The position numbers and the translations under genes were made by a program. A stretch of DNA of 47,966 bases from assembly GCA_002773845.1 (NCBI GenBank), contig PEZZ01000029.1, positions 1 through 47,966 on the forward strand. The letters are read 5' to 3'. The stretch is from Candidatus Buchananbacteria bacterium CG10_big_fil_rev_8_21_14_0_10_42_9. Lineage in GTDB: Bacteria > Patescibacteriota > Patescibacteriia > Buchananbacterales > 21-14-0-10-42-9. Shown here piece by piece: positions 944 to 27,914 of the stretch (positions are counted from its first letter, which is position 1; every line of letters begins with the position of its first letter). The notes beneath the pieces are model-generated. The model searched no databases, had not been told where the DNA came from, and saw only the letters and a program-made list of their open reading frames with translations.

Positions 944-1822
944 GTGGCGGGCCCTCAAACAAAACAACAAAATAGAAATTCAAATTTTGGCGGCAGTTCA
1001 TATAGTTTAGACACACTTTACGGTTCACCGATTGGCGAAGTTGAAGAATCGATTTTAAAGGAAAGAATAACTGCCGGCAAAAAGTACTTTTTAAAAAACG
1101 CAGATTCAATTTTACCTAAAACGTTAGTCGTGGTTACCGCGCTGACGTTTTTTGTTGCTGTTTGGCAGGTAAGTGCCAATTTCAATATTTCTCCAATTTT
1201 TCCCGAGGGCGAACCTAACTCGACTCAAAATTTATCCGCCGCGCTCCAGGCCAACTTAATTGCTGATGGCTCAGGTGATACCGACGGTGACGGCGTTAGT
1301 GACGCTGATGAACTAGGGATTTACGGCACCAGTATTTATTTAGCCGATTCTGATTCGGACGGCATTTCTGATTATGATGAAATTCAAAATGGCACTGATC
1401 CCAATTGTTTAGCCGGCGAAGACTGTGAAAATAAATTACGGCAAGAAGCTAATAGTGTTTTATCGGGAGGCAATTTGCCTGCTAATTATACTGCGACCGG
1501 GGCCGCTATTTCGGCAGATGATTTAAGAAATATTTTAGCTGACGAAGGAGTGCCGCAGGCTGATTTAGATTTGTTGAGTGATAATGATTTAGCACAAATT
1601 TATAATCAAGCCGCAAGCGCGACGCAATCTGAGATAGAATTTGACGATAGTTTTTTAAACTTAGATTCAAGCTCAACTGATGTCAAATCTATAATCTCAC
1701 AAATGTCTGCATCTCAGTTACGCCAAGCTTTGTTAGAAGCAGGTTTAACTGAAACGCAGTTAAATCAAGTGAGCGATGAGGAAATTATTAACCTAGCCGA
1801 TGAGGTTTTAAAGACATTTTAG
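944..1822 (+). CDS. Membrane-anchored protein with two calcium-binding-type Asp loops
   Basis: I do not recognise a named family. The 292-residue protein has a polar N-terminus, one membrane segment (about residues 59-78), and then an outside part. Residues 112-123 (DTDGDGVSDADE) and 135-146 (DSDSDGISDYDE) are DxDxDG loops of the thrombospondin type 3 or EF-hand kind that bind calcium. Two C-terminal stretches of about 30 residues (about 192-222 and 258-288) resemble each other (LR..L...G....L...SD), suggesting a tandem helical repeat. GTG at 944 is the first start after an in-frame stop at 932-934. Its stop directly abuts the ATG of the giant gene, so the two are probably cotranscribed and the proteins may act together at the cell surface. 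Confidence 0.75.
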   Translation: MAGPQTKQQNRNSNFGGSSYSLDTLYGSPIGEVEESILKERITAGKKYFLKNADSILPKTLVVVTALTFFVAVWQVSANFNISPIFPEGEPNSTQNLSAALQANLIADGSGDTDGDGVSDADELGIYGTSIYLADSDSDGISDYDEIQNGTDPNCLAGEDCENKLRQEANSVLSGGNLPANYTATGAAISADDLRNILADEGVPQADLDLLSDNDLAQIYNQAASATQSEIEFDDSFLNLDSSSTDVKSIISQMSASQLRQALLEAGLTETQLNQVSDEEIINLADEVLKTF

Positions 1823-4800
1823 ATGAAATCTTTCTTGGTTAAAAACTTTTTTATCTGCCTGGCTACTTTTCTCTTGCTGAGTTCATTGATTGCTCCCTTA
1901 AACCAGTCTTTAGCAGCCGATGTGCCTGGCGCTGATGGCAGTGGCGTCGCTTCGGTTTCAGACCCAGCTGTTAACACAGTTTCCCCTGACGTCACTACTA
2001 GAGATGCCGGAGAGGAAGCTAGAAGAGTAGCAGCCGAAGAGAAAAAAGAGCAGTTAAAAAGAGCAGCCGCCATCGCATTTAAACAAGCACTTAATTTCTT
2101 TTTGCAAAATCTTGCCCATGATTCAGCGGTGGCGATTGTATCTGGGGGGGAAGGCCAAACATCTTTATTTTATGAACAAAGTTTTGGTGATTATGTTTTA
2201 GGCCAACTTGACAGAAGTGCCGGTATTTTTGCGGAAACATTGTTGGGCGATGGCTTTGGCATTAATTATGCAGGTCTATGTGACCCAGGCATTCCTTTTA
2301 GATTAAGTTTAACGCTTGGCTTACCAGGCTTTGAGCCGCCGTCTCCACCATCTTGCACTTTAACTGAATTAGCCGGGAATTGGCGGTCAAGATTAGGCAG
2401 CGCGGACTTTGCAGATTTTTTTGTCGCTTCCTTAGATCCGCGTGCTAATCAGTTGGGGATAGGGGGGGAAATTCAAAAAAATTATTTAGGCGAGTTAATT
2501 GCCAAAGCATTTGTGAGTAGCGGAGAGCGTTCCGATGGCGATTTTGAAGATATAGTTGATAAAATTACTGGTGAAATTTTAACTCCTGGAGATTTGTTAA
2601 GAAGGCAAGCCGAAGAAGGTTTAATCGTTAGGCCGGCTAATATTCAGGAGGCTCGCACCGGAGATATTGTGGCTGACGCCATTGACACGTTTGTGCAAAC
2701 TTTAGCCGGCGAGATGTTTAAAAAATTATTTGAAGGCTTGCGCTCGTTCAGCGGCAGTCGTGGCAGTCGGCCAGCCGTCAATGTTAGATTGCCCGGATCT
2801 TCTGTTTCTTCTCAAATCAGCGGATTACAAGCCGCCCGCGACAGGTTTGCGAGTATTTTTGAGGTTGGCCGACGGGTTGGCGGGCCCCAAGAAATTTTGG
2901 TGGAACTTTCTCAATGTAACAACATTAATAATCCAGGCCCAAATAATTGCGTGATTGATCAAAAATTTCGCCAAGCTGTTGAAAATGAATTAACTGTGCA
3001 ACAAGCCATTAATCAGGATTTACTTGACCCTAATGCTCCGTTCGGATTTATTTCAGGCGGTTTTGAGCCTCCTTACAATCAGGGGTTACCCTATCGCAGT
3101 ATTCTTGTATTAAGAACTCATCGCATTGTTCCAGCATCATGGGAGTTAGCCGCGCAATATATTGGTGTTAATGGGGACGAACAAAAGTTGGGAGACTTAG
3201 TAGACGCTTTTAACGATGTTAATTCCCCATACTTTGGTTTAGTTGATCCAAATTGGGTATTAAAAGCTCCAGAAGCTTTTTGTGCCTTGGAAGGTTTTAG
3301 TAATTATTTGAATGACGATAAAGTTACCGGCAGCGGTTCAAGCTCCCAGCGTGTTGTCACCCGGGCTGAATACTGTGCCGATCAGCAAAGCTGTTTAGAG
3401 GAAGATATTGACGGCAGTTGTAAAACCTATGGTTACTGCACCAAAGAAAAACCAACTTGGGATTTTCAAGCTAACAGATGTAGTGAGGACTTTGCTACCT
3501 GCGAAACTTTTCGCGGCACAAGCGGCAACGTCACTACCGCAAGTTACCTTAAAAACACTTTAGATTTTGAAGGTTGCAGTGTTGATTCGGTTGGTTGCCA
3601 ATGGTATTGCACTGAATACAATCCGTTTAATGGAGTTTGGACTTGTACTGAAGAGCAAGAAAAAGTATTACGAGAATGTAATAACCCTAACGGTTGTAGC
3701 GCGTCGGTGTCTTGTTTTGTGCCGCAAGGCGAACAAGCTTGCCAATCTGACGAAGGTGCCTTTTTATTCTTGCGCAATCCGTGCAGCGCTACTTCGCCTG
3801 GATGGGATGCGGCATCGCAAAGTTGTTTCCGTTCGGAGTCTTGTACGATTGAGCCAGGCGGAGTGCAATGTATTGTGCCGTCATGCTCTGACTTGCCAAA
3901 CCAAGTCGCTAACGGCAGTTTTGAAACTTCTCACCCAACACCGCTAATTAATAACGATCCAGCCGCTAGCTGGGTGCGGGTTGGTAATAATCTGCCTTTT
4001 TCATTAACTCGCGTCACAGGCTCAAATGAAAAAGTATTTTCTGGTAATTTCTCACTTCGTTTCTTCACTAATGGTGGTGTCACGCAAGCCGGTAATTCAC
4101 AGCTCATTTTACAAAATGAAGCTAACACTTTAACCGGTCTGACTGCCGGCAACACCTACACGGCTTCAATTTGGGTCTACAACAGTTTGCAGTTGGGCAA
4201 TGTGTTTTTGCAAGTGAGTTCCGGGTCAGCTGGTTGTAACACACAAGGCTTTGTGCCCCAAAAAGGCACTTGGCAACAAATCGCATGTAATTTTGATGCT
4301 GGCGCGAATACCGCCACAATTCAAATTTATGCAACTGATAATCCGGTGGGTACGTTTTGGCTGGATGAAGCAACTATCACTCAAGAATGTTTGAATGAAC
4401 AAGCCACGGTAACCTTAATTGGGCAGTCGGATTTAGATGGCAGTAAAATTTACTTTGACGATGACGTTCAAACTTGCTCCGCCTCGGAAGCTGGATGTTC
4501 TAACCTGCTTCGCCTCAACCAGAATTTTGGCCGGAACTTAATCGCCATAAATTCAAGCTTTGAAGAGGTTGGTACCGGCTGGCCAATAGCTGGTAGCACT
4601 AACCAGTCTCATATTGGTAATCAATCAGTTGAGCTTGCGCCAGGGCAAAGCGTAACTTATGCCGGACCACCATCCCGCCAGGCCATAACTCCTGGCGTGC
4701 CTTACATTTATTCAGCGTGGGGCTTGGGTGAAAATAGCAGCGGCCAAACCGGTCAATTAACTATTACTGAATTTGCCGGTGGCAGCCAAATTAACTCTCA

Positions 4801-7800
4801 AAGCCAAAATCTCAATTTACCATCTTCATGGCGGCAGTTTAATATGCTATACACCCCATCGCAAAATTTCTGTCAAAATGGAGTTTGTAGCGTGGGGGGG
4901 AACGCTTGCCCCGGCGGCGATAATGATTGTCCGCTGGTGAGCGAAGTGGAGTTAAGCCTAGGCAATAATTCGACTAATGGCCAGGTATGGTATGACGACG
5001 TTACCTTTGGTGATATTTCCGATTTTACTGTCAATGGTTCAATTCAAAACGCCCAAGTAGCTAACGCCGGCGGGGATTTTGGTATCGTTTTAGATAATTT
5101 GCATATTAAACAGCCGCCTTCATATTTGGGCTGCACTGGCGATCCTGAAAGCGATCCGCTTGAATGTGGCTCATACGCGGGGGTATGTAGTGCCGACGAG
5201 GTTGGATGTGATTTATTCTCTCCGACTAACGGCGATATTCCTATCCCTGGCATCCCGGCTGAAGGAGATTATTGCCCATCAGAATGTGTCGGCTACGCTG
5301 CCTTTAAACAATCGGCCACTAATTATGAAAATGAACAATTTCCGGTTTATTTAATTCCCGACCGGGGCGACCAATGTAACGCGGCGGCAGTTGGCTGCCA
5401 AGAGTTTACTAATTTGGATGAAGTCGCACGCGGCGGGGAAGGTTTAGAGTATTACACATTCTTGCGCCAATGCGTAAAACCGGAAAACGCGGTATCCGCT
5501 GGCAATTCATGTGGCACTTTCTTTACTTGGGTTGGCTCGGATGTCACCGGTTTCCAATTACAAGTTCACAATTTGCAACTATCTAATGATCCGGCTACTG
5601 AATGCGACCCTACAGTTTCGGTTTGCCCGGCACAGGTTAATTTAGCCTCTAACTTTGGCCGTTGCGAGAATTTGCAAGACGCGATTAATAATCCTTTCTG
5701 TAAAGAATTTATCGCGCCTAATGGCGATAAGTCTTACATCATTATCGAACAAACAATTTCGTGTACCGACAACTGCGTTCCGTACCGAGCAACTGATGTT
5801 GACTTAGGCATAAACGATTGCCAAGCTTTCGGCGGCGTTGAAGAAGATATAGATAATGATGGAACCGTTGACGCTTGTGTCTTTAACGCGGTGCCGGGAG
5901 AGGGCCAATCTTGTGGCGTGGCGGAAGCCGGTTGCCGGGAATACCGCGGTAATGCGGCGCCAAATGTCTTCAATGTCTTTACCGACACTTTTGAGTTTAA
6001 CGCCGCTAATCAGTGGCATGTGGGCGATATATCTTCAGAATCAACCAACGTTGGCGGCCACTCGCTTGCCTCAGCTTCTGAATTAGACCCAACGATTACT
6101 TCCGCGCAAACATTATCCGGCAGTACCAATAGTGCCGGGTATGTTGATGCCGATGGGAGCGGCACCTGTACTGAGGCGGATGGTTCATACAATGATGCTA
6201 CTCGCACCTGCCTAGCTCAAATGAGAAACGGTGAAACTTGTGAGATATTACTTGGAGATACGTTTTGTGGCATTTTAGATGATCGGTTAGTTAATAATGG
6301 CAATTATCTTTTAAGTTTTTGGGCCAAGAATGCCTCGCAGAACCCAAGCAATGCAAATTTTGATGTGGCAATTTTTAACCAAATTCAAATTGCTACAGAT
6401 ATTGGCGTGGGGCCAAACTGGCAAAATTATTTGCTTGGTCCGTTTACCATAGGGGACGTGTCCCCAGAAGCGATTTTGTCTTTCAGAAGGGATTGCGGTG
6501 CAAACTGTACGGCCGCCGACACATTCTATATTGATAATGTCGTTTTAAAACAAGTTCAAGACTTTGAATACCTTATTAAAGATTCTTGGGATATTCCGTT
6601 AAGCTGTGATTCTAACCCGGCCTTAGATCCGAATACCTATCCTCAACCAAACGCCCCGCAATTTATGCTTGGTTGCCAAGAATACACTGATCGTTTCGGC
6701 CAGTTGCAATATCTAAAATCGTTCGATCAATTATGCCGAGCTTCAGCGGCCGGATGCGAAGCCTTTATTGATACCCATAATTCCAATTCTTCGCTTGCCG
6801 AACAATTTAACCTTGGCGACCCATTGGCACAAGTTAATGTGCCGTCAGACAACCTTACTTATTTGGTTAATGATCCAAATTTTTACTGTCCGTCAACGTC
6901 TCAAGGATGTACGGAGCTTGGCTTACCTGAAATTAATGGCCAAACCGGCAAGGTGTCAGATTATGAAACAGTGTATTTGATTCAGGATCCTGAAACTTTC
7001 GGTACCACCCTTTGCGAAAGTGAAGCTTTGGGTTGTGAGGCGTGGCAAAGTGGTAATGGCTTATCTTATTTTAAAGCTCCGGGCGATAGAACTTGTGAGT
7101 TTGCGGCTAAAGGCGCAGACTCGATTCCCCGTTGGTATAAGTCTGGCACTAACGAAGCGTGCCCAGTTGGCAACACGCCACTTGGCGTTTTGCGCCCTGA
7201 CCGGGCTTGCATTGGCGGGTTTAACGATGGACAACAGTGCCGCACTGACGAAGATTGTTTGGGGCCAAATGACAACAGCTCTAACGATGATGGGAATTGC
7301 CAGAATTGGGCCGGTCTATGTAGCGCGCGTGATAATAGCTGTACTGAATTCGTGGATCCAGGGTCTTCAAATAGGGAAAATCAAATATTTAACGGCGGCT
7401 TCGACCAAGATGTGTTGGGGGATTTAACTAATGGAGTGGATAATTGGTCGGGTCCGGTGAGCTTGCCGTCGGGCCAGCCGGTCTTTACTAATGACGGCAA
7501 ATTCGGCCTTGTCGGCGCTAAAAGCATTTTGAGCCAAATTGGCAATCCGGCGTTTCAATATAATAGTGGCCAAGCTATTCATCAAGATTTAATTTTAGGC
7601 CGCAGTACTTTGTATACCGTTGGTTTTGAAGCGGCAGTACCACCGGGCAGTTCCGTCCCAACGTCTGGTAATTTACGCGCCACCCTAGCTTGCGCTGACC
7701 CGACCGGCGACCAAAAATTACAGTCGTTTGACAACAGTATGTTGGTTAGTGATAATGTGACTTTCAACGGTTCGTTGTATGACGTGGCTGAACTCTCTGT

Positions 7801-10800
7801 GCCGGCTAATGTTATAACCAAAAGCGATCTGTTCAATATTGAAACAGGAGGTTTCACAACCTTTAGCGGACGGGTGTTTATTGACGAACAAAATAACGGT
7901 TGTCGCGTGTACTTTGGCTCAGACGAATCTATTAATTTGTCTTCCGTGCCGATTATTTTTGAGGACGTTTTTGTCAAAGAAACGGGAGTTTATTACCATC
8001 TTAAAAACGATGCTGATTATCAGTCTTGTAATGGTATTGTTAATGCCGAAGAGGGGTGTGTGTTATTCAATGACCGTAGCGAAGTCAATTATTCAATCGG
8101 CGAAAGCGACAGCAGCTATTTAATTTTTAACTCCCACCAAACAGATAACGGCGAAACGGCGAGTTCGAGTTGCGCCGCCGGTAATTGTAATAGCAACTCA
8201 ATTGTCAAAGTTAAGCCGGATCGTGAATGTGCTGAGTGGTTAGATTGCAGCAGCCGTACTAAAGTTGTTGGCTTAGACGGCATTGAACAAGATGTGTGCG
8301 TTGATTTAGTGACTTGCCGTTCATTTGATGCCAATGGTGAATGTGACGATTTTGTTACGCCTTCGTCTGAATTAGTCGCAAACAATTTAACACCGCTTAA
8401 TCAAACCTTCGCTTATCGCGATGTTAGCCGCCTGCGAAATCTGTCCGGTTATTCAACGCCCGGGTATCGCTTTGATAGCACCGGGTCCTTTGCGATTGAA
8501 GGCCAATACCAATACAGCTTAATGCCGCAAGTTGGGGAAGTGGCCGAAGTGCCAAATCCGAGTTTTGAAATCTTTACCGCCGATTCTGAACCGCTGGGTT
8601 GGAGCTTCCCTGATTTTAGTCGAGTGTGGACGTCTAACTTATTTAATGTCATTGCTGATCCAGTCACAGCCGAAACTGAAGGGATTACCCAGCAAGACGG
8701 CAATGCAATTTTACGGTTTGGTTCAAATTTTGGAGTTATTTCAGATTCCTTTGATGTCTTTGCTAATACCGAATATGTCTTGTCGGCGTTAATTAATACT
8801 CGTCAGTTAGATGTTGGTGAAGCAAGCGGAAATAGCAACATTGCTACTAGGATAGAAGTTGTAATTGATGACGGTGGTCGCACTAATGTAATTAGCGGTT
8901 CAACCATTGAGCAGCCGGCCGGGCTTGGCTGGCGCCAGCGTTTGGTAAGCTTCTCAACTCCAAGCAATGTTACCAAGGTTAGAATTAGAATGTATAACAC
9001 TGACGGCTCGGCCGAGTGCGAAGGCGGTTTTGACGATCCGGATTGTTTTATAGAAGGTAAAACTTTTGTGGATTTAGTTAAGTTGCGCCCAGCCTTGGAA
9101 GTTCAATCAATTAATCAATCGCCCGTGCTGGTAGGAAATTCTTGTCGAGTATATCCTGAAAGCGATTCGCTGTCTTGCGAATACACCGGCGATGAAGGTA
9201 TCACTTATCAAGGCATCAACGGTTATTGCTTACTTGAGGATCCGCGAAACCCTAACTTGTGTTTGCAGTGGTGGCCGGTAAATATGATTAAAGGCGATCA
9301 ACGCGACTTAGTGGCAGGTTACAACGACCGCTTTCCGCTGTATCAATGTTTAGCCAATGATTTGACTTTAACTGAAAAAATCGAAGACACAGGCATCATC
9401 ACTGTGGCCGAAGCCTGTGTTGGCGGCTACTTCCCGACCTTTACGCCAGATTGCGTGTTGTTTAGACATGAAGATGCCCAGCCGTTGAACAGCAAAGGTA
9501 ATGGCGCACCGAGGACTTTGGACGCGGCCGGTATATCCGAGAGCGAAAAAGATTTTGCTTCGCTGGGTTTATTGGAGCGGGTTCGTTTAGACGTCACTTT
9601 CCCGGGCGGTTTAACCGCTTGCGCTGGAAACTTCGTAGGTAATCTTATTCCATTTTCTGAACAATCTCCCACCGGGCGAACAGTACGCACATTTGATGTA
9701 ATGAATTCTTCATATGAATATACTGACCCAGCCTTTGTTTGGGGCTTATCTGTCGGCGGTGATACTTACTGTTCGGCTTACGTTGGATTTTTTGAAGAAA
9801 CAGCCCAAAATCACTCGCGCGGAGATTTAGCTTTTATCCAGGCTTGCGCTATTGACCAAGGTAGTTGTTCCACCCGCGACAGTCACCGGTTTAACTTGCA
9901 GTTTGATGGTTTTACAGGTTTTGACAATTTAGAATGTCGCGCCTTTAGTCAAACCGTAACTCGGGCCGGGTCAAACAAAGCTTGGAATGCGCGGGTGGAT
10001 AAAGGTTCAGACTTTGAGCTACACGATACGCTCACTATCTACAGCAGTGATTCAGCACCGTTTGGCGCGGCTCAACCTCCAGATCCGATCAATCGGCCAG
10101 AGCTTTGGGATAACAGTACGGCTGATGGTTTGCAACCATTGGGAGTAGAGAACCCAGATGCTTCATTTGCCCCTCCATATCAAGCGCGTTCAGGTTCGGT
10201 TTTTGCCTGTATTGGCTCAACGCCTGAAACAGACCAAAAAACTTTTACCGATGACTTTATTAGCCAATTACCTAGCGGCGGGGCAGTTTATACGTGTAAT
10301 GGCGGAATTAATGACGGGATTACCTGCGATCCGTCGTTATCGCTAGCTTGTACGGCTTCAGAATGCACTGGCGATCCAGATTTTAATGGCAATGCCTGCC
10401 ATAATGATAGTGAGTGCGGCCTAGGAACATGTGTTGATCCAAATCCATCAGACAATGGCACTTGTGTGCAAACTAGCGGTAGCTCCGGTGGTTCAACTTG
10501 TGGATTAGTCGGCCGATGTTCAGTTTCAGGATCAGTTTGTGTTCAATACCCGTACTTCAATCGTCCAACAATTGGTTTTTGCAGCAGTGATGACCCGCAA
10601 ACCAGCGGTTTAGAGTGCCAAAGTGATGCTGACTGCGGTTTTGGCGTATGTCAAACTAATGTGCGCGGAGCAGGGCTTTATTTGTCTGGCGGGTGTCCGG
10701 TTGAAGGGGAAGTTTGTGACTTGTTAAATTACACTGACGATGGCGGCCCAGAAGATGATCCTTCAGGCAATCCAATCCCGTTTGATATTCGCCAAGATAA

Positions 10801-11644
10801 TGCCATTGCTAAAGGTGCTGATCGGGTCAAACGCTTATTTGCCCGCGCTTTTGGTATATGGGAATTAAATACTGTTGGCTACGAGAGACAAAATCCAATA
10901 AGCCGAGTCGCCGATGATTTTAACGGTGACGGAATTTCTGACCTTTGGGATCCGCCGGTGTCAGGGCAAGAGTGCCCCGATAATATCCGCCCCTTAGCGG
11001 TTTGCAGTAATAGCGGAGTGCCTTGCACCACTAATGCTATTTGCGGACCGGGTGGATCTTGCCAAAATATTAGCGTTGATTACTGCGCGGTCGCCCCAAT
11101 TGTTAGCCGCATTAGCATTGCCGGAGAAATTGATTTTGGCGCGAGCAAACAAGTGCAAATTAGTGAAGCTGGTTCAGTGAGTTTAGAATTTAATACCCAA
11201 GTTGACGCTAACCAAGAGCCAATTGCCGCTTACCGTATTGATTGGGGGGACGGGCGTACAATTTCAGTTTCCGGTTTAAAGAGTATCCAAGACCGATCCA
11301 ATCAAGATGAGCCGATTAAACTTTCGCACTCATACAATTACTTTGACATTTTAGCTCGTTCAGCGAGCAGCCAATCAATCTATTGCGCCGGCGACTCACA
11401 CCCGACACTAGGCACCGTGCCGGCAAACACTTGCTATATTCAACCGCGGATTCAAGTGATTGATAATTGGGGTTGGTGTAACGCTAATATTGATCATCGG
11501 GAAAACGTACCGACGAGCGGCCAGCCGATTGATGTTCAAACCGGGGGACTTACAAATACTTGGGGCTACTACGGTACCGCGTGCCAAGGCGGATTGAACT
11601 CCTTCCAATCCTACAACGGCACAATAATTGTAACGCGTAATTAA
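1823..11644 (+). CDS. Giant secreted modular Cys-rich surface protein (3273 aa)
   Basis: A signal peptide (about 1-31, ending in SLAA) marks this as exported. Residues about 33-330 are helix-rich. Residues about 428-493 carry a segment (LVDPNWVLKAP) that I recall from large uncharacterised Patescibacteria proteins. Then Cys-rich linkers alternate with five jelly-roll-like modules resembling CBM4/9 carbohydrate-binding domains, at about 692-855, 903-1063, 1380-1580, 1851-2056 and 2242-2426. Each opens with an N.SFE-like motif and closes with a W/Y-x-D-D/E-like strand. The linkers hold nine C-x5-G/S-C motifs (first Cys at 585, 885, 1122, 1185, 1364, 1638, 1689, 1731, 1833). Residues about 2820-2960 hold DxDC..G.C motifs, about 3031-3046 a DFNGDGISD calcium loop, and about 3095-3240 a PKD-like domain (WGDG). 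No C-terminal anchor is visible. Role in adhesion or a surface layer is inferred from the modules and from its place at the head of the secretion-like operon. Confidence 0.85.
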   Translation: MKSFLVKNFFICLATFLLLSSLIAPLNQSLAADVPGADGSGVASVSDPAVNTVSPDVTTRDAGEEARRVAAEEKKEQLKRAAAIAFKQALNFFLQNLAHDSAVAIVSGGEGQTSLFYEQSFGDYVLGQLDRSAGIFAETLLGDGFGINYAGLCDPGIPFRLSLTLGLPGFEPPSPPSCTLTELAGNWRSRLGSADFADFFVASLDPRANQLGIGGEIQKNYLGELIAKAFVSSGERSDGDFEDIVDKITGEILTPGDLLRRQAEEGLIVRPANIQEARTGDIVADAIDTFVQTLAGEMFKKLFEGLRSFSGSRGSRPAVNVRLPGSSVSSQISGLQAARDRFASIFEVGRRVGGPQEILVELSQCNNINNPGPNNCVIDQKFRQAVENELTVQQAINQDLLDPNAPFGFISGGFEPPYNQGLPYRSILVLRTHRIVPASWELAAQYIGVNGDEQKLGDLVDAFNDVNSPYFGLVDPNWVLKAPEAFCALEGFSNYLNDDKVTGSGSSSQRVVTRAEYCADQQSCLEEDIDGSCKTYGYCTKEKPTWDFQANRCSEDFATCETFRGTSGNVTTASYLKNTLDFEGCSVDSVGCQWYCTEYNPFNGVWTCTEEQEKVLRECNNPNGCSASVSCFVPQGEQACQSDEGAFLFLRNPCSATSPGWDAASQSCFRSESCTIEPGGVQCIVPSCSDLPNQVANGSFETSHPTPLINNDPAASWVRVGNNLPFSLTRVTGSNEKVFSGNFSLRFFTNGGVTQAGNSQLILQNEANTLTGLTAGNTYTASIWVYNSLQLGNVFLQVSSGSAGCNTQGFVPQKGTWQQIACNFDAGANTATIQIYATDNPVGTFWLDEATITQECLNEQATVTLIGQSDLDGSKIYFDDDVQTCSASEAGCSNLLRLNQNFGRNLIAINSSFEEVGTGWPIAGSTNQSHIGNQSVELAPGQSVTYAGPPSRQAITPGVPYIYSAWGLGENSSGQTGQLTITEFAGGSQINSQSQNLNLPSSWRQFNMLYTPSQNFCQNGVCSVGGNACPGGDNDCPLVSEVELSLGNNSTNGQVWYDDVTFGDISDFTVNGSIQNAQVANAGGDFGIVLDNLHIKQPPSYLGCTGDPESDPLECGSYAGVCSADEVGCDLFSPTNGDIPIPGIPAEGDYCPSECVGYAAFKQSATNYENEQFPVYLIPDRGDQCNAAAVGCQEFTNLDEVARGGEGLEYYTFLRQCVKPENAVSAGNSCGTFFTWVGSDVTGFQLQVHNLQLSNDPATECDPTVSVCPAQVNLASNFGRCENLQDAINNPFCKEFIAPNGDKSYIIIEQTISCTDNCVPYRATDVDLGINDCQAFGGVEEDIDNDGTVDACVFNAVPGEGQSCGVAEAGCREYRGNAAPNVFNVFTDTFEFNAANQWHVGDISSESTNVGGHSLASASELDPTITSAQTLSGSTNSAGYVDADGSGTCTEADGSYNDATRTCLAQMRNGETCEILLGDTFCGILDDRLVNNGNYLLSFWAKNASQNPSNANFDVAIFNQIQIATDIGVGPNWQNYLLGPFTIGDVSPEAILSFRRDCGANCTAADTFYIDNVVLKQVQDFEYLIKDSWDIPLSCDSNPALDPNTYPQPNAPQFMLGCQEYTDRFGQLQYLKSFDQLCRASAAGCEAFIDTHNSNSSLAEQFNLGDPLAQVNVPSDNLTYLVNDPNFYCPSTSQGCTELGLPEINGQTGKVSDYETVYLIQDPETFGTTLCESEALGCEAWQSGNGLSYFKAPGDRTCEFAAKGADSIPRWYKSGTNEACPVGNTPLGVLRPDRACIGGFNDGQQCRTDEDCLGPNDNSSNDDGNCQNWAGLCSARDNSCTEFVDPGSSNRENQIFNGGFDQDVLGDLTNGVDNWSGPVSLPSGQPVFTNDGKFGLVGAKSILSQIGNPAFQYNSGQAIHQDLILGRSTLYTVGFEAAVPPGSSVPTSGNLRATLACADPTGDQKLQSFDNSMLVSDNVTFNGSLYDVAELSVPANVITKSDLFNIETGGFTTFSGRVFIDEQNNGCRVYFGSDESINLSSVPIIFEDVFVKETGVYYHLKNDADYQSCNGIVNAEEGCVLFNDRSEVNYSIGESDSSYLIFNSHQTDNGETASSSCAAGNCNSNSIVKVKPDRECAEWLDCSSRTKVVGLDGIEQDVCVDLVTCRSFDANGECDDFVTPSSELVANNLTPLNQTFAYRDVSRLRNLSGYSTPGYRFDSTGSFAIEGQYQYSLMPQVGEVAEVPNPSFEIFTADSEPLGWSFPDFSRVWTSNLFNVIADPVTAETEGITQQDGNAILRFGSNFGVISDSFDVFANTEYVLSALINTRQLDVGEASGNSNIATRIEVVIDDGGRTNVISGSTIEQPAGLGWRQRLVSFSTPSNVTKVRIRMYNTDGSAECEGGFDDPDCFIEGKTFVDLVKLRPALEVQSINQSPVLVGNSCRVYPESDSLSCEYTGDEGITYQGINGYCLLEDPRNPNLCLQWWPVNMIKGDQRDLVAGYNDRFPLYQCLANDLTLTEKIEDTGIITVAEACVGGYFPTFTPDCVLFRHEDAQPLNSKGNGAPRTLDAAGISESEKDFASLGLLERVRLDVTFPGGLTACAGNFVGNLIPFSEQSPTGRTVRTFDVMNSSYEYTDPAFVWGLSVGGDTYCSAYVGFFEETAQNHSRGDLAFIQACAIDQGSCSTRDSHRFNLQFDGFTGFDNLECRAFSQTVTRAGSNKAWNARVDKGSDFELHDTLTIYSSDSAPFGAAQPPDPINRPELWDNSTADGLQPLGVENPDASFAPPYQARSGSVFACIGSTPETDQKTFTDDFISQLPSGGAVYTCNGGINDGITCDPSLSLACTASECTGDPDFNGNACHNDSECGLGTCVDPNPSDNGTCVQTSGSSGGSTCGLVGRCSVSGSVCVQYPYFNRPTIGFCSSDDPQTSGLECQSDADCGFGVCQTNVRGAGLYLSGGCPVEGEVCDLLNYTDDGGPEDDPSGNPIPFDIRQDNAIAKGADRVKRLFARAFGIWELNTVGYERQNPISRVADDFNGDGISDLWDPPVSGQECPDNIRPLAVCSNSGVPCTTNAICGPGGSCQNISVDYCAVAPIVSRISIAGEIDFGASKQVQISEAGSVSLEFNTQVDANQEPIAAYRIDWGDGRTISVSGLKSIQDRSNQDEPIKLSHSYNYFDILARSASSQSIYCAGDSHPTLGTVPANTCYIQPRIQVIDNWGWCNANIDHRENVPTSGQPIDVQTGGLTNTWGYYGTACQGGLNSFQSYNGTIIVTRN

Positions 11645-11667: not shown

Positions 11668-11928
11668 ATGTATTATACATACGTTCTACAAAGCAAAGGA
11701 GATCAAGCATGGTACACCGGCGCCACTAATAATTTAAAAAAGCGTTTCAAGGAACATAATGGCAATCAAGTGGCATCAACTAAAGGCCGCCGCCTTTTTA
11801 TGTTGATTTACTATGAGTCATGTCTTGATTGTGGAGATGCTTTTGCAAGAGAAAAATATCTTAAGACTGGCATGGGAAAACGATACTTAAAAAACAGATT
11901 AAAACGCTTTTTAGCTCTAATGGGGTAA
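11668..11928 (+). CDS. Small GIY-YIG nuclease domain protein
   Basis: The 86-residue protein is a stand-alone GIY-YIG domain of the UvrC-N/YhbQ type: YTYVLQS gives the GIY-equivalent strand, WYTGATNNLKKRFKEHN the YIG-equivalent strand with the conserved Arg, and EKYLKTGMGKRYLKNRLK the C-terminal helix with the catalytic-type Glu. Family members cut DNA, but the small stand-alone versions have no settled cellular role. The C-terminus (ALMG) and the start of its stop codon are encoded by the right inverted repeat. It sits 23 bases after the giant gene and 2 bases before the next operon gene. Confidence 0.85.
   Translation: MYYTYVLQSKGDQAWYTGATNNLKKRFKEHNGNQVASTKGRRLFMLIYYESCLDCGDAFAREKYLKTGMGKRYLKNRLKRFLALMG
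11915..11926 (+). repeat. Right inverted repeat of the GIY-YIG unit
   Basis: CTCTAATGGGGT; its reverse complement matches the left repeat at 11 of 12 bases. It ends on the first base of the nuclease's TAA stop, four bases before the next start codon. Confidence 0.6.
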
Positions 11929-11930
11929 AT

Positions 11931-12761
11931 ATGGCAGACGAAAAGCAAAATCAAAGGTTGACTGGACCGCAATTCTCATTGCACAAGCCAGGCGATTACT
12001 CTCAGCTTTGGCGCCGAGAATTGGTAAAGGCTAATCGTCAAAGACAGCAGCCAGAAGCCGAGCAGGCTGATGAATTGGAAGAGCAAGCTGAAAATGAAAT
12101 TTCTTCTGCTGCTTTATCTTTAGGCCAAGCTGCAGTGGCGGCCCAATCAATATCTTATGCCGAACCAATTATTAAAACCGACAGACAAGCCGCTAGGGCA
12201 AGAAATATTCTAAAGGCTGAAAAGGTTAGCTTTCAAAATCTTCAAGATGAAAAGAAATTGCACAAAACAATCACTGAAAGGGCAGTCATTTTAGGCCAAA
12301 AGTTATCCGAACAAGCTGCTAAAGGTGCCAATTGGCCGCTATTTGTTTTGGTGTTTGTGGCAGTGTTATATGATATTTTAGACCCAATTGCCAGCTACAG
12401 TACAGCATGGATTGCGAAGATTTTTATTTGGGCAATGACTTTTTTCATAAATAGTTTCTTGATTCATTGGGCTTCAAGGTATCAAGGCCGTACGTCTATT
12501 AAGGCTCGGCGCCTAATGTACAGGGCGATGTTTAGAATATACATCAGAATGCTTGGCGGGATGTCGGCAGAACTTATACCTTTTATTGATTTCTTACCGA
12601 TGATGACATTTACTTCTTTATTGACTGTTCGATGGTTGATTTTAGAAAGACGAAAGTTTAGACAACAAGCCGAAAATGAATTACAAAAAGCTATAAAAGA
12701 AGATAAACAGATAGCCAATTTAGTTATAGAGCCGCCAAGACGATTAGCCAAAGCCGCATGA
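11931..12761 (+). CDS. Three-TM membrane protein of the secretion-like operon, unknown function
   Basis: I do not recognise a named family. The 276-residue protein has a charged, Gln/Glu-rich cytoplasmic first half (1-130), then membrane segments at about 134-152, 162-181 and 212-235, and a charged tail. The middle loop is rich in Arg, Lys and Tyr (180-206). Its stop overlaps the start of the VirB6-like gene by four bases, which implies coupled translation and a shared membrane complex. A scaffold or channel-associated role in the type IV secretion-like apparatus is inferred only from that position. Confidence 0.7.
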   Translation: MADEKQNQRLTGPQFSLHKPGDYSQLWRRELVKANRQRQQPEAEQADELEEQAENEISSAALSLGQAAVAAQSISYAEPIIKTDRQAARARNILKAEKVSFQNLQDEKKLHKTITERAVILGQKLSEQAAKGANWPLFVLVFVAVLYDILDPIASYSTAWIAKIFIWAMTFFINSFLIHWASRYQGRTSIKARRLMYRAMFRIYIRMLGGMSAELIPFIDFLPMMTFTSLLTVRWLILERRKFRQQAENELQKAIKEDKQIANLVIEPPRRLAKAA

Positions 12762-15592
12762 ATATAATTGTTACATTTCTTAAAAGCAAAGTCGCAATTG
12801 GCGGCATTCTTATGGCATGGTTATTTTTAACAATTTCATTTTTGCTTATCCCTATTTTTTCAGGACCAGTTTTTGCCCAAGAAGAAGATTCTCAGCCAAT
12901 TGTAGTAGTGAATGTTAACGACAAAGAACATACAGGTGGGTTTTTTAGGAAGGTAGGAACATATGTTTCAGATGGATTGACGGGGTTAGCATTTACTATA
13001 ATTGGTATACCTGCGAATGCAATATTATATTTGGTAAATCTGTTGAGATTTGTGCTTTATGGTGTTTTGGGAATATTGACCGAATACTCGAACTATGTAA
13101 ACGCACAGCCCGTGCTGGTTGGCTGGCCATTTGTTCGAGATATATCAAATATGTTTTTTATACTGATATTGCTTCTGATTTCCGTGGCCACTATTTTAAA
13201 AATTGAAAGATACAACTACAAAAAAGCTCTTCCTCGATTACTTTTGATGGCAGTTCTGATAAATTTTTCTCGCACTATCACGGGATTGGTAATTGATTTT
13301 GGGCAAGTGGCTATGAACGCCTTATACGGCCAAATTAAAGGCATAGGATATGAAAGCTTACTAGAAACTGTTTTTAGTACCCCGGAATTATATTCTTTTG
13401 AACACTATTTAGAAGGGCTAAAAGGGGTGGTTAGCATTGAAACAGAATCGGGTGTTACATTTAGTTCATTATTAATTTCTACTATTTTAGGTTTAATTCT
13501 TTCGTCCATTACACTAATCGTGGTCGCTGTTTATGTTGTTATGTTCGCCGCACGTATTATTGCGTTGTGGGTGTTAATTATTTTATCACCAATAGCATTT
13601 TTGGCCGCAGCGATACCTGGGGGAGAGAGTTATTTTAGACAATGGTGGAGCGAGCTAGTTAAATATGTTCTTATCGGTCCCATTTTACTCTTTTTCCTTT
13701 TGTTAAGCACGCGCGTAGGGTCAGAGTTAAATTTTTCATCCAACCAGAATGCAGACAGAATCCAAGAAGCCTTAAACACAATAGGCATTTCAAATGCCGG
13801 ATCAGTTGATTATATTTTAAGCTTAGTAGTGGCAGTAGTATTCTTAATGGTTGGTTTGGCGGTTGCTTCAAGGGCCGGTACTGCCGGTGCAGGACTAGCT
13901 AGTGCGGCGTCGAATAAGATTAAATCAACCGGTATGAGAGGGTTGTCTTTCACTGCTGGGGCACTGGGTAGAAAAGTTGATCGTCAATTAGCCAGGGGTA
14001 GATTCACCAAGTTTTTATCGCCAACGGTTATCCGCGAGGGGTACAAGAAGAATCACGCGCGTTTAGATCGCCAAGCTTTTACTAAACCGATTGGAGAGGC
14101 AGCTGATTTTTTTAGGAATTTAAGGCCAATTGAAGCTACCAAGGGGTTAATACAGAAAGCAAGAATATTCCCAGGGACAAAGTTAGAAGACTATGAAAAG
14201 GCTAAAGCTAAAGTTAACGAGCTAGCCGCAAATACGACAGGCGGGCTAAGCGCTTTAACGGCAGATCAGATTGATTCTTATGACGCCGGAACGAAAAAGT
14301 TGATTGAGCAAGGCATAGCCAAAGAAAAAATAAGAGAAAGCGAAAAAGAGAAATCCATTGTCCAAAAAGACATTGTCAAGTTAGATACGATGATGCATGA
14401 CAGTAATGGGAATGAAATTTCATCAACCAAATTTCAAGAAGCAATTGAAGCTGTTCTAAGAAAACTTGATACTGAAATAACAGACGATCAAGCAATAATA
14501 GCCCAGCTAGCTATTCAAAGAGGAAGAGCGGAGCGGGGGGGCGATATTAATCAGGTTAAAGCATTAGAGGACGAAATTAAGCAAAAGGAAGAAAAGATAG
14601 CCCAAACCAAAGGTGAAGCCAATAAGCTAGATAAATACAATAACCACAACGGCAAGGCATTGGCTGCCGTTGACATTAGTAGTAATCGGTCTAAATTAAG
14701 AAGTATTAACGACGAGATAGAAACTTATGTCCAGGAAAATAAAACCTACCGGGATGAGGCTCAGCAGAAATTTTTTAAAGGTAAAACAGAGTCAGAGTTA
14801 AAAGCCATGACCATAAGAACACATCGGCCAGAAACAGAAAGAGCAGAGCGGGCAGCCATCAATGAAGAGTTAGCAGAATTGCCGAGAAATGCCATGGATG
14901 CTTCTGATCTTTTGGCTCAAGCTCGCGACGCTTTAAACAAAGGTGAGAAAGAACGTTTTAGCGCTTTGATGATAAAGGCTGCTCAAGATTATAATGGTAA
15001 TGAGATTTTACCTGAGTTTAATTTGGATGGCGATATGCCTGGGTATGAAAAATTTGTCAATAATATACTTGTTAAACAGCTCGGCATGGGGGAGCAAAGC
15101 GCCTTGAGATTACTCGATGATATTGCTTATATTAATGAGGATAACAATCAACGGTCTGGGTCGAGATTAGTCGGTACGGATAAAACGGGGGCTAAACGTT
15201 TACTGACTCAGGAAGAGCATAATATGCTAGTGGAAATTGAGATAAATAAAGCTAACCCGAGAGCTTTTCAACAAAACGCCAACCGTCTGTCATATGGATA
15301 TCATAATGCCGACGGTTCGTACGTGATTGATAAGTTTGGATTAAATTACATAGCTTCTAATATCAATGATATTGTCTATAGGATTGGTAGAGGGGAATTG
15401 AACCCTAATGCTTTAGCTCATTTTGCATTACGAAAAGATCAAATAGAAGAGGCTATCAAAACCGGGCTAATTGACGCCCTAAGCGGTAAGAAGTTAATAA
15501 ATGCTATTAATTCAAAATTGGGTCAATCGGTTAGATCCGATGCCCAAAGTATTGAGGAAAGCATTAAAGCTGCCCAGGGGCATGTAGTTTAA
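12758..15592 (+). CDS. VirB6/TrbL-like polytopic membrane protein with long cytoplasmic tail
   Basis: The 944-residue protein begins with a signal-like hydrophobic stretch (about 15-40, ending VFAQE) and has further membrane segments near 75-110, 128-147, 155-175, 233-290, 300-318 and 352-375. The block LSPIAFLAAAIPGGESYFRQWW and the next KYVLIGPILLFFLLL resemble the core of VirB6/TrbL inner-membrane channel proteins of type IV secretion systems. Residues after about 380 form a long soluble tail rich in Lys, Glu and Gln, with likely coiled coils (about 520-700). Such tails are longer than in classical VirB6. It overlaps the previous gene by four bases and lies two bases before the next. VirB6-type identity is from topology and local motifs, not a full alignment. 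Confidence 0.7.
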   Translation: MNIIVTFLKSKVAIGGILMAWLFLTISFLLIPIFSGPVFAQEEDSQPIVVVNVNDKEHTGGFFRKVGTYVSDGLTGLAFTIIGIPANAILYLVNLLRFVLYGVLGILTEYSNYVNAQPVLVGWPFVRDISNMFFILILLLISVATILKIERYNYKKALPRLLLMAVLINFSRTITGLVIDFGQVAMNALYGQIKGIGYESLLETVFSTPELYSFEHYLEGLKGVVSIETESGVTFSSLLISTILGLILSSITLIVVAVYVVMFAARIIALWVLIILSPIAFLAAAIPGGESYFRQWWSELVKYVLIGPILLFFLLLSTRVGSELNFSSNQNADRIQEALNTIGISNAGSVDYILSLVVAVVFLMVGLAVASRAGTAGAGLASAASNKIKSTGMRGLSFTAGALGRKVDRQLARGRFTKFLSPTVIREGYKKNHARLDRQAFTKPIGEAADFFRNLRPIEATKGLIQKARIFPGTKLEDYEKAKAKVNELAANTTGGLSALTADQIDSYDAGTKKLIEQGIAKEKIRESEKEKSIVQKDIVKLDTMMHDSNGNEISSTKFQEAIEAVLRKLDTEITDDQAIIAQLAIQRGRAERGGDINQVKALEDEIKQKEEKIAQTKGEANKLDKYNNHNGKALAAVDISSNRSKLRSINDEIETYVQENKTYRDEAQQKFFKGKTESELKAMTIRTHRPETERAERAAINEELAELPRNAMDASDLLAQARDALNKGEKERFSALMIKAAQDYNGNEILPEFNLDGDMPGYEKFVNNILVKQLGMGEQSALRLLDDIAYINEDNNQRSGSRLVGTDKTGAKRLLTQEEHNMLVEIEINKANPRAFQQNANRLSYGYHNADGSYVIDKFGLNYIASNINDIVYRIGRGELNPNALAHFALRKDQIEEAIKTGLIDALSGKKLINAINSKLGQSVRSDAQSIEESIKAAQGHVV

Positions 15593-15594
15593 AT

Positions 15595-16912: not shown

Positions 16913-18085
16913 ATGGCTAAACACAATCGTCGTTATTTTTTTACTTCTGAATCAGTCACTGAGGGCCACCCTGATAAAGTTGCTGATCGAATTTCAGATT
17001 CAATTTTAGATGAGCTAATTAAGCAAGATAAGCACTCTCGCGCCGGCATTGAGACTTTAGTCACTACTGGGCTTGTGGTTGTAGCTGGAGAAATTAGAAC
17101 CAAGGGTTATGTCGATATCGCAAAAATTGCACGCGAAACTATTCGTGATATTGGGTACGTGCACCATGACGGCGGTTTTCATTGGGAAGATTGTGGCGTG
17201 ATGGTCGCAATTGATGAACAAAGTCCAGAAATTGCGCAAGGCGTTGACGCTGGACGTGGTAAATTTAGAAAACAAGGCGCTGGCGACCAAGGCTTAATGT
17301 TTGGTTTTGCAACTAACGAAACGCCTGAACTTATGCCGCTGTCATTAATGATGGCCCATAAAATGGCGCGTCGTCTATCACAAGTTAGAAAAAATAAAAC
17401 TTTGCCGTATCTACGGCCTGACGGTAAAACGGAAGTCGCTATTGAATACGAAAAGGGTAAGCCTAAGCGTTTAGATACGGTGGTTGTAGCCGCCCAACAT
17501 GACAGCAAAGTGAGTGAGGAGAGAGTGGAGCGAGATGTTATTTCTAAAGTAATTAAACCAGTGGCGGGAAAATATTGGGATCGCAAAACCAGGGTGTTTG
17601 TTAACGCGACTGGCAAATTTGTCAAAGGCGGCCCGCCAGCTGATGCTGGATTAACTGGCCGTAAAATTATTGTTGACACTTACGGCGGCCATGGAAGCCA
17701 CGGCGGCGGCGCGTTTTCCGGTAAAGATCCGTCAAAAGTTGACCGGTCAGCAAGTTACGCCGCGAGGCACGTGGCTAAAAATGTCGTCGCTTCTGGCATC
17801 GCCAAGCAATGCGAAGTGCAGTTGGCCTACGTTATTGGCGTGGCCGAACCAATTAGCATTTTAGTTGACACTTTTGGCACTGCAAAAATTGAGGATCATA
17901 AAATTGAGCGATTGATAAAAAAGCATTTTGATTTAACCCCGACCGGGATTATTAAAGAGTTAAATTTATTAAGACCAATTTACAAACAAACCTCGGCTTA
18001 TGGACATTTTGGCAGGAAAGAACCGGAGTTTAGTTGGGAGAAAATTAATAAAGCTAAAATTTTTCGCCGTGAAGCAAAGATTTAG
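16913..18085 (+). CDS. metK: S-adenosylmethionine synthase MetK
   Basis: MetK makes S-adenosylmethionine from methionine and ATP, the methyl donor for RsmA and other methylases. The 390-residue length is normal. Visible family motifs include [10 protein letters not shown] at the N-terminus, [12 protein letters not shown] (family usually ends GY), [16 protein letters not shown] and [17 protein letters not shown] with the phosphate-binding Lys and Asp residues, then a conserved C-terminus (YGHFGR). The usual GGPxGD reads GGPPAD (239-244), replacing a strongly conserved Gly with Ala. Housekeeping metK lies inside the secretion-like operon, ten bases after one gene and two before the next, so it is probably cotranscribed. 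The leader is too short for a SAM riboswitch. Confidence 0.97.
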
Positions 18086-19457: not shown

Positions 19458-19895
19458 ATGCATCAATTTACTGTTCCGCAATATATTGACGTAGAAGATA
19501 AAATCATTGGGCCAATTACCGTTCGCCAGTTTATTATTTTATTAGTGGGCGTTGGTTTTGGCTTTGTCGCTTATAAAACAGCAAGTTTTGTAGTGTTTAT
19601 TTTTATCGCTTTATTTATTTTAATTGTAACGGTACTATTAGCTTTTGCCAAAATCAACGGCCGACCCATTCATTACTTTTTTTTAAATGTGATTCAAACT
19701 TTTAAAAAACCAAGATTGCGCATTTGGAATAAGATTTTAAATAACGCCGATTTAAAGGAGGCCTTAAGGCCTATTAAAGAGGTTGAAGCTAAAACAATCA
19801 GAACCAAAAAGCCGGTCGCTAGTACGCGCTTAGCGGAGCTTTCGCTTTTAGTCGATACCGGCGGTGTTTATCAAGGTGAAGTGATTAAAAAGTAG
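19458..19895 (+). CDS. PrgI family membrane protein
   Basis: PrgI proteins are small membrane parts of Gram-positive-type conjugation systems, usually encoded just before the VirB4 ATPase, as here. The 145-residue protein opens with the typical VPQYIDVEDKIIGPIT segment, then two membrane segments (about 23-41 and 43-64), then the NGRPIHYFFLNVIQ.F.KP.L..W motif. The rest is a basic cytoplasmic tail. It stands two bases after the previous gene and one base before the TraC-like gene, which fits a fixed complex. Confidence 0.85.
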   Translation: MHQFTVPQYIDVEDKIIGPITVRQFIILLVGVGFGFVAYKTASFVVFIFIALFILIVTVLLAFAKINGRPIHYFFLNVIQTFKKPRLRIWNKILNNADLKEALRPIKEVEAKTIRTKKPVASTRLAELSLLVDTGGVYQGEVIKK

Positions 19896-19896
19896 T

Positions 19897-20622
19897 ATGG
19901 CCAAAAAAGAAAAAGCCAAAAAGTCGACACAAGCAAGGAGTGATTTAACGACCAAGCCTAAAAAACGCCCCAAAGCTCCAGCCAGCCAGCGTTATATTGA
20001 TATTGCTGAAATTCGGGACAACGTGGTTGTTATGCGCGACGGCACTTTGCGCACTGTGTTGCTAGTGTCCAGCATTAATTTTGCCTTGAAGTCAGAAGAC
20101 GAACAAAACGCTATTATTTCTGGATATGTCACCTTTTTAAACGCGGTTGATTTTCCGGTTCAAATAGTGATCCAGTCGCGCAAGTTAGACATTGACGGAT
20201 ATTTAGGACGTTTGGAAAAATCAGAAAAAGAACAAACTAATGAATTATTGCGTATGCAAATAGCCGATTATCGCCAATATGTTTCGGAACTCGTTGAACT
20301 AGGCGATATCATGACCAAGCGATTTTATTTGGTTATCCCATACGATCCAGTGTCTGATAAGAGTAAGGGTTTTTTCAAGCGTTTTATTGAACTTTTCCGA
20401 GCGCCAAAAAGTTTAAAATTAAACCAAAAAACTTTTAATCGCCGCAAGCATGAATTAGATCAGCGAGTGGCCCACGTTTCTACTAACTTACAAAGTATGG
20501 GTTTGCAAACAGTTGTTTTAGACACCCAATCTTTAATTGAACTTTATTATAATACTTACAATCCTGATGTTTCGAGCCGACAAAAATTATCAAATTTAAG
20601 CGAAATTGATATAGTAACTTAA
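19897..20622 (+). CDS. TraC/VirB4 N-terminal-like domain protein
   Basis: The 241-residue protein has a basic disordered start (1-30) and then a domain like the N-terminal part of TraC/VirB4-type conjugation ATPases: SSINFALKSEDEQNAIISGY followed by FLNAVDFPVQIVIQSRKLDI. It has no Walker motif. It ends in YYNTYNP, a segment typical of the N-terminal half of these ATPases. One base separates it from the PrgI gene and one from the VirB4 gene. It probably works with the VirB4 ATPase at the membrane base of the secretion-like system. Confidence 0.75.
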   Translation: MAKKEKAKKSTQARSDLTTKPKKRPKAPASQRYIDIAEIRDNVVVMRDGTLRTVLLVSSINFALKSEDEQNAIISGYVTFLNAVDFPVQIVIQSRKLDIDGYLGRLEKSEKEQTNELLRMQIADYRQYVSELVELGDIMTKRFYLVIPYDPVSDKSKGFFKRFIELFRAPKSLKLNQKTFNRRKHELDQRVAHVSTNLQSMGLQTVVLDTQSLIELYYNTYNPDVSSRQKLSNLSEIDIVT

Positions 20623-27269: not shown

Positions 27270-27914
27270 TTAACAACCAGGGGGGTTTGGTACACACTGG
27301 CCAATATTTTGATCCGGCGCTGCTGCTGGGCAGCACGACTCTATGCCTGGTTCGCAAAGATTTATGTTATCAAAACATCCCCGAGGTGCTTCCTGGCTCT
27401 TACAAGAGCAGGTGCCGGTTTGCGTTTTTGTATTGAAATGCCAAATTTCATTTCCATCTCCACATCGTTGTTTGCATTGTTCCCGAGTAATTCCAGTTTC
27501 AATAGTATTATTTATTGGCTCATCGGATTGAATATCAGGCTTTAACTTTCCCAAGTCAGGGCCTTCAAGGCTAGTGAGTTCAGGGTTGACAGCGTATAAA
27601 ATAACAAAAGAGGTTAAAGCTATAACTAACCCTGTAAGAGCGGCGGCAATGTATTCTTTGGCGACTTTTACTCTATCTTGGCTTCCTCCGGCCATAAGCC
27701 ACATCAGTCCAGCAATCATAATCACTATTATTGCCAATATTCCTATAGTTCCAATAGCAAATTGATAAATGGCAATTATATAGTTACGCAATAAAACAAT
27801 ACCTTCCCCGCTAACTGTTTGTCCGGGTATGTTGACTTGCAGTTGATACGCAAAAACTGGCATGGCGACTGCTAATAAAGCAAAAATTGATAAAGTAATT
27901 ACAAGCTTTTTCAT
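27270..27914 (-). CDS. Type IV secretion pilin (VirB2/TrbC type) with Cys-rich C-terminal domain
   Basis: The 214-residue protein has a signal peptide (1-22, ending VFAY) and two membrane helices (about 50-75 and 88-109) joined by a short loop (MAGGSQDRVKVAKEYI), the layout of VirB2/TrbC pilin subunits as found in Patescibacteria. Unlike classical VirB2, it continues for about 100 residues into an outside domain with ten Cys (147, 151, 169, 171, 180, 187, 194, 195, 207, 214), likely disulfide-bonded. It is the last gene of the lemA-htpX-clpC operon, its ATG following the propeller gene's stop directly, and it is separated from the other secretion-like genes only by a - strand inversion. It probably forms the surface filament or channel of that system. 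Confidence 0.85.
   Translation of the reverse strand: MKKLVITLSIFALLAVAMPVFAYQLQVNIPGQTVSGEGIVLLRNYIIAIYQFAIGTIGILAIIVIMIAGLMWLMAGGSQDRVKVAKEYIAAALTGLVIALTSFVILYAVNPELTSLEGPDLGKLKPDIQSDEPINNTIETGITREQCKQRCGDGNEIWHFNTKTQTGTCSCKSQEAPRGCFDNINLCEPGIESCCPAAAPDQNIGQCVPNPPGC

Follow-up and report, generated by a model that had tools for sequence, protein, structure and literature searches.

Gene and overall organization of the giant protein

A central question about Patescibacteria is how they attach to their hosts and feed on them, and a conserved exported protein tied to a T4SS operon would be a concrete, testable candidate for the host-cell contact part. Such a gene, for a protein of 3273 residues, is found in a contig of Candidatus Buchananbacteria (47,966 nucleotides, hereafter the window, i.e., the whole stretch of DNA that was analysed) from a 1.09 Mb genome that is 96% complete. 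What does its product do? The preliminary description, made from the sequence alone, had called a single gene encoding a signal peptide and five CBM4/9-like modules. The open reading frame from 1823 to 11644 is indeed uninterrupted, and its ATG sits directly after the stop codon of the upstream gene. The parts of the protein are as follows.

1823..11644, + strand: giant protein, predicted to be exported, 3273 aa (ORF call; class-wide family)
1823..1918, + strand: signal-peptide-like N-terminus, residues 1-32 (hydrophobic segment, seen by inspection near the N-terminus in all aligned homologs)
2060..3682, + strand: conserved N-terminal domain, residues ~80-620 (many invariant Cys)
3911..4372, + strand: CBM4/9-like module 1, residues 697-850 (close relatives only)
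4541..5047, + strand: CBM4/9-like module 2, residues 907-1075 (in 14/22 homologs)
5105..5950, + strand: Cys-rich core 1, residues 1095-1376 (invariant C-x6-C loops)
5948..6598, + strand: CBM4/9-like module 3, residues 1376-1592 (in 22/22 homologs; Foldseek matches to CBM16/CBM4 on a low-confidence model)
6584..7372, + strand: Cys-rich core 2, residues 1588-1850 (C-x6-C loops 1638/1645, 1689/1696, 1731/1738 and 1833/1840)
7379..7996, + strand: CBM4/9-like module 4, residues 1853-2058 (close relatives only)
7973..8377, + strand: Cys-rich core 3, residues 2051-2185 (alignment; retained in the short form at L057)
8540..9097, + strand: CBM4/9-like module 5, residues 2240-2425 (close relatives only)
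9140..9322, + strand: conserved GYCLxxD..CLxWWPV segment, residues 2440-2500 (alignment)
11075..11641, + strand: PKD-like C-terminal domain, residues 3085-3273 (class-wide motif; weak Pfam PKD_4 match)

As proposed, the N-terminus looks like a typical export signal by eye, with a single hydrophobic stretch and an Ala-rich site at its end; export and a surface location are predicted from this signal peptide. A scan of 22 aligned homologs with a hydrophobic 19-mer window detected no segment beyond the N-terminus, except one at residue 56 of the L022 protein, and neither a C-terminal hydrophobic segment nor an LPXTG motif near the C-terminus was present in any of the 22. The alignment consists of a constant skeleton with variable inserts. 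The constant parts are the N-terminal domain of ~520 residues, several Cys-rich core blocks, module 3 and the PKD-like C-terminus. The family is usually encoded by one gene, and complete copies are mostly ~2,300-4,100 aa long. When the whole protein was scanned against Pfam, CBM_4_9 was the sole match (4.9e-9); scans of 15 homologs revealed no well-supported catalytic domain and no SLH or other wall-anchoring domain.

Carbohydrate-binding-like modules

The profile search of the modules against Pfam that had been suggested earlier gave a score above the cut-off for the whole protein (CBM_4_9, PF02018; 37.1 bits versus 25.9), with single modules scoring just under it (5.5e-4 for module 1 and 2.9e-5 for module 2). 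A module 2 profile built from homologs matched solved structures of the CBM4/CBM16/CBM22 type (3.6e-7), and the corresponding module 3 profile matched CBM22, CBM4 and CBM16 structures (1.6e-8). The two profiles also match each other (hhalign, 96.8%). Since both of them match modules 1, 4 and 5 but none of four control pieces, the five-module reading is correct. Conservation of module 3 shows that the sugar-contact aromatics are not invariant; the positions that are invariant look structural.

Compared with known CBM4/9/16/22 proteins, to which the five modules are related by profile, the giant protein has no attached glycosidase, its remainder is unrelated, and sugar binding is putative. It supplies modules that can be expressed and assayed for glycan or wall binding.

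N-terminal domain, Cys-rich core and C-terminus

The N-terminal domain had no Pfam match and no convincing relative in the PDB in profile searches. Its only PDB match (0.0074) was taken as chance, since no stretch of it passes alone. Profiles of the Cys-rich core and of the C-terminus likewise retrieved no convincing PDB relative, and the core had no Pfam match. The N-terminal domain and the Cys-rich core, which define the family, thus appear to match no known family at the level of profile searches.

There are 129 Cys residues in the protein. C-x6-C pairs occur 19 times; 5.0 would be expected, and none of 500 shuffles yielded more than 12. Ten of the pairs are shared without exception by 15 divergent homologs: 553/560, 585/592, 885/892, 1122/1129, 1185/1192 and 1364/1371 and, further on, the four loops of core 2 listed above. 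The Cys hallmark of the family is therefore C-x6-C and not the DxDC repeats noted previously, copies of which are irregular and not a conserved feature. A calcium loop that had been noted as well is present at residue 1342 of the window protein and absent from nearly all homologs. The proposed PKD-like end fared better, as a motif common to the class (QxPI..IDWGDG..FxHxY..PRVQVxDNWGWC) carries the WGDG...H.Y...V.V.DN.G signature of PKD domains. Unlike these domains, it has extra conserved Cys, and its Pfam support is marginal: the best E-value for PKD_4 among 16 C-terminal domains was 0.033, in one member and below the cut-off, and the window protein's own C-terminal domain had no Pfam PKD match.

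AlphaFold2 models of the N-terminal domain (four sequences) and of core 1 with module 3 (three sequences) had mean pLDDT values of 33.8 and 34.7, respectively, and no fold is claimed for either. The module 3 part reached pLDDT ~50-60 only and contained beta strands; top Foldseek matches included CBM16 and CBM4. Since model confidence is low, we take this result as agreement with the profile evidence and no more; it is the profile matches to solved CBM folds that favour a jelly-roll beta sandwich.

Distribution and rate of change

Within the same class, the N-terminal domain profile matched 338 of 381 genomes, and 293 of the 319 that are of good quality. The latter fraction (~92%) is a lower bound, because some genomes scored as lacking the protein carry fragments or a shortened form; among 20 listed non-matching genomes, G396, G397, G446, G457, G479 and G482 are of this kind, one copy being masked. 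When the phylum was sampled evenly, 33 of 380 genomes were matched, all of them from this class, and an independent core 1 profile (E <= 1e-3) retrieved the identical 33. With these two profiles, the protein was not detected outside the class in the sampled rest of the phylum, and plasmids yielded no match to the N-terminal domain. The relatives that bear a name are Ca. Buchananbacteria, Ca. Kerfeldbacteria and one contig labelled Ca. Microgenomatus auricola, and we take the class to be ABY1 (Patescibacteria) from the placement of these groups. ABY1 is treated as a class in PMC11809585. The giant protein is thus conserved, single-copy, class-wide and near-universal in ABY1, and can serve to mark ABY1 cells in metaproteomic and imaging work. 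The earlier remark that similar large proteins with no assigned role occur in Patescibacteria holds in that such proteins exist, but this family is confined to one class. No description of it was found in searches of open papers, and a cluster identifier for it may exist.

Several unusual copies were encountered. An open frame of 26,141 aa containing the core in G446 (contig 8; L079-L083) was rejected as an artefact with 72 kb of N inside; after the N run, there is real C-terminal sequence of an ordinary giant protein. L057 (G479) carries a shortened form of 1525 aa (12074-16651, - strand), which has lost the N-terminal half, retains later blocks, and lies directly upstream of and adjoining a VirB6-like gene. 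By eye, it starts with a fibronectin-III-like stretch. In Kerfeldbacteria, the protein at L005 (9977-20572) has an inserted von Willebrand A domain, a Pfam match seen in one of 15 homologs.

Within-genus identities in three genera are 70, 58 and 69% for the giant protein, compared to 62, 43 and 46% for the VirB6-like protein; two within-genus pairs of VirB4 are 90 and 93% identical. By these values, the giant protein is under clear constraint and is more conserved than the VirB6-like protein. The same values give no support to a hypervariable adhesin.

Gene neighbourhood

Genes from 944 to 23829 of the window form a head-to-tail array in which no gap exceeds 24 nt. Their order is TSP3 membrane protein, giant protein, GIY-YIG ORF, small membrane protein, VirB6-like protein, 435-aa protein, metK, 455-aa protein, PrgI, TrsD-like protein, VirB4, one-TM protein and ComF. 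Those with assignments are listed below.

944..1822, + strand: partner gene, 292-aa protein with one TM segment and a pair of TSP3-type calcium loops spaced by 23 residues (Pfam TSP3_bac, 1.5e-8)
12758..15592, + strand: VirB6-like polytopic membrane protein, 944 aa (weak NCBIfam CD3337/EF1877 match, 1.3e-4)
16913..18085, + strand: metK, within the operon, not a T4SS gene (NCBIfam, 1.1e-166)
19458..19895, + strand: PrgI (VirB3) (Pfam PrgI, 2.2e-9)
19897..20622, + strand: TrsD-like, resembling the VirB4 N-terminus (weak Pfam TraC_F_IV, 0.0017; position; PMC12102498)
20624..22516, + strand: VirB4 ATPase (Pfam TraG P-loop, 9.2e-29; 66% identity to the L005 homolog)

Judging by the joint presence of VirB4, PrgI/VirB3 and a VirB6-like protein, the neighbouring genes encode a monoderm MPF_FATA-like T4SS. 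VirB6-like homologs occupy the same position in other loci and have 7-10 hydrophobic segments. No promoter above chance was detected upstream of 944.

In 26 of 27 loci, the TSP3 gene immediately precedes the giant gene (in one, with a small ORF between them), and nearly all TSP3 homologs have two calcium loops with the 23-residue spacing. The exception is G161 (L069), where the TSP3 gene directly precedes p455-PrgI-TrsD-VirB4 and the giant gene is on another contig. The usual upstream neighbour at these loci is KsgA. The closest genetic partner of the giant protein is thus the upstream TSP3 protein rather than VirB4/PrgI, and the two genes form a unit that can be tested together with the T4SS.

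That the giant gene heads a secretion operon, as had been proposed, holds in the window, and the link recurs in most families of the class. Among the 33 genomes of the phylum sample that bear it, 18 have VirB4 downstream on the same strand within <=20 kb. The other 15 comprise G183, with a VirB6-like gene downstream before the contig end, G128, with VirB4 at 26 kb, five genomes in which the region is cut by contig ends, and eight that are clearly unlinked (G072, G085, G161, G172, G212, G273, G315 and G348). With the VirB6-only G183 counted, linkage is seen in at least one member of 16 of the 19 families. The operon of the T4SS in family f5, which is unlinked, begins directly at the VirB6-like gene. 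The preliminary description had staked its view on homologs being linked to VirB4/PrgI; this expectation fails in the eight unlinked genomes, although VirB4 is present elsewhere in each. Co-occurrence, the survey it had recommended, is high, with VirB4 in 41 of the 42 good-quality genomes from the class that were screened, and for this very reason presence does not discriminate and gene order is the informative signal.

VirB4 was also found in all 14 non-class genomes checked, and no recognisable part of the giant protein was seen in T4SS neighbourhoods of 12 of them. In other classes, the slot before PrgI is taken by other, unrelated exported proteins, e.g., a lysozyme-like one (L044) or a possible M23 peptidase (L046). 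One locus of another class, L037, has the order KsgA, TSP3 membrane protein, two exported-type proteins, VirB6, PrgI, TrsD and VirB4. Going by this one genome, the KsgA-TSP3-T4SS order may predate ABY1, with the giant gene acquired or grown there.

Comparison with known systems

PrgB is expressed from the conjugation operon of pCF10 and aids mating-pair formation (PMC7726212). The giant protein resembles this aggregation substance in being a large exported surface-type protein encoded in a monoderm-type (MPF_FATA) T4SS operon with a presumed role in contact, an analogy of position and architecture. It differs in having neither the polymer adhesin domain (Pfam, 15 homologs) nor a C-terminal LPXTG (22 homologs), in its Cys richness and CBM4/9-like modules, and in being chromosomal and class-wide. 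TraN is a large, Cys-rich exported protein tied to the F-type T4SS, where it stabilises mating pairs. The giant protein, also large, Cys-rich, of exported type and tied to a T4SS, has no Pfam TraN match and no outer-membrane system, and is about five times longer. Membership in the PrgB or TraN family was rejected in view of the missing polymer adhesin domain, LPXTG and TraN profile match.

Within ABY1, Patescibacterium danicum encodes FhaB/DUF2341 proteins of >4000 aa with a proposed role in adhesion (PMC11809585). These are likewise large and of exported type, but they are full-length in two genomes only and have FhaB domains (PMC11809585), whereas the giant protein has none and occurs in ~92% of good ABY1 genomes.

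Possible function

A role at the surface is the natural reading of a Sec-exported protein with multiple CBMs. That it may be the main surface or host-contact protein of the cell, as the preliminary description proposed, is a hypothesis. The reading we favour, tentatively and at not quite an even chance, is that of a conserved, surface-exposed, disulfide-braced scaffold or adhesin for cell contact where the T4SS works. The protein would be exported by Sec to the ABY1 cell surface, having been produced alongside the one-TM TSP3 protein of the membrane and, in the majority of families, the T4SS as well. The TSP3 protein would tether it; outside the cell it would form a rod, built of Cys loops and jelly-roll modules and braced by disulfides, and the modules would bind and hold the surface of the partner cell at the site of T4SS action, a job comparable to those of PrgB in monoderm conjugation systems and TraN in the F plasmid.

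A signal-peptide-like N-terminus followed by almost no further hydrophobic segment, the five modules, and the 129 Cys and ten invariant C-x6-C loops, a pattern usual for oxidised proteins outside the cell, are all consistent with this contact role. So are the near-universal presence in the class, the TSP3 gene upstream and the T4SS downstream (26/27 loci and 18/33 genomes), the head-to-tail run of 944-23829, and the variable modules 1, 4 and 5 carried by an unchanging core, a pattern shared with binding proteins. According to PMC12102498, monoderm T4SSs need adhesins at the surface to make contact, and none of the PrgB type was detected in Patescibacteria; the adhesin slot is thus otherwise empty. 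Against the contact role stand the missing LPXTG, which leaves anchoring without an explanation, the sugar-contact aromatics of module 3, which are not invariant, and the eight genomes in which the gene is far from the T4SS. Host-range adhesins are often hypervariable, and this protein, 58-70% identical within genera, is not. Its slow change tempers the adhesin reading and keeps alive that of a scaffold and that of a coat. The latter, a structural coat or envelope protein (S-layer-like or a matrix scaffold) whose linkage to the T4SS is inherited gene order with no shared function, agrees with near-universal presence and slow evolution, with a TSP3 partner kept even where the T4SS is far away, and with the fact that multi-CBM and TSP3 proteins can be wall-associated. 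We consider it rather unlikely, given that linkage is kept in 16/19 class families, mostly to VirB4, that even the shortened form adjoins a VirB6 gene, and that the protein does not seem to have the low-Cys, repetitive composition usual for S-layer proteins.

The place of the gene at the operon head, between those for the TSP3 membrane protein and VirB6, would also suit an extracellular structural part of the T4SS itself (a stalk, conduit or cap) that would stand in for the outer parts missing in Patescibacteria. PMC12102498 reports essentially no outer-membrane core components there. The conserved N-terminal domain without a fold match, and the TSP3 gene that stayed with the T4SS in L069 (G161) after the giant gene moved away, point the same way. 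Yet the giant protein is absent outside the class while all 14 non-class genomes checked have the T4SS, and it is unlinked in family f5; we regard such a part as quite unlikely. A version that joins it to contact, in which the giant protein and its TSP3 partner are a dedicated ABY1 T4SS component, i.e., a stalk braced by disulfides, with interchangeable tips for sugar binding, that would bridge the distance to the host and replace both the missing outer parts and adhesins, is likewise unlikely. A PilY1-like adhesin that serves the type IV pilus system rather than the T4SS is suggested by L005, where the gene follows type IV pilus genes and its product carries the von Willebrand A domain; with pilus genes directly adjacent in the L005 lineage only, no PilY1 domain in Pfam scans and KsgA as the usual neighbour, this is highly improbable. 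Operon position is all that speaks for a T4SS substrate or an enzyme delivered to the host; already disfavoured by the Sec-type signal peptide and by the absence, in 15 homologs scanned with Pfam, of any catalytic domain with good support, it is the most improbable of these readings.

Other genes at the T4SS loci

Three further genes of the window deserve mention. metK (S-adenosylmethionine synthetase) lies within the T4SS operon in several class families, being also found there at L003, L004, L052, L053, L054 and L059. The GIY-YIG ORF of 86 aa between the giant gene and the T4SS genes (11668-11928) has no homolog in the other loci compared. Finally, a gene near the operon on the opposite strand (27270-27914, - strand) encodes a T4SS-pilin-like protein (Pfam T4SS_pilin, 0.012, below the cut-off) with two TM helices and an unusual Cys-rich C-terminal tail, which is a candidate VirB2.
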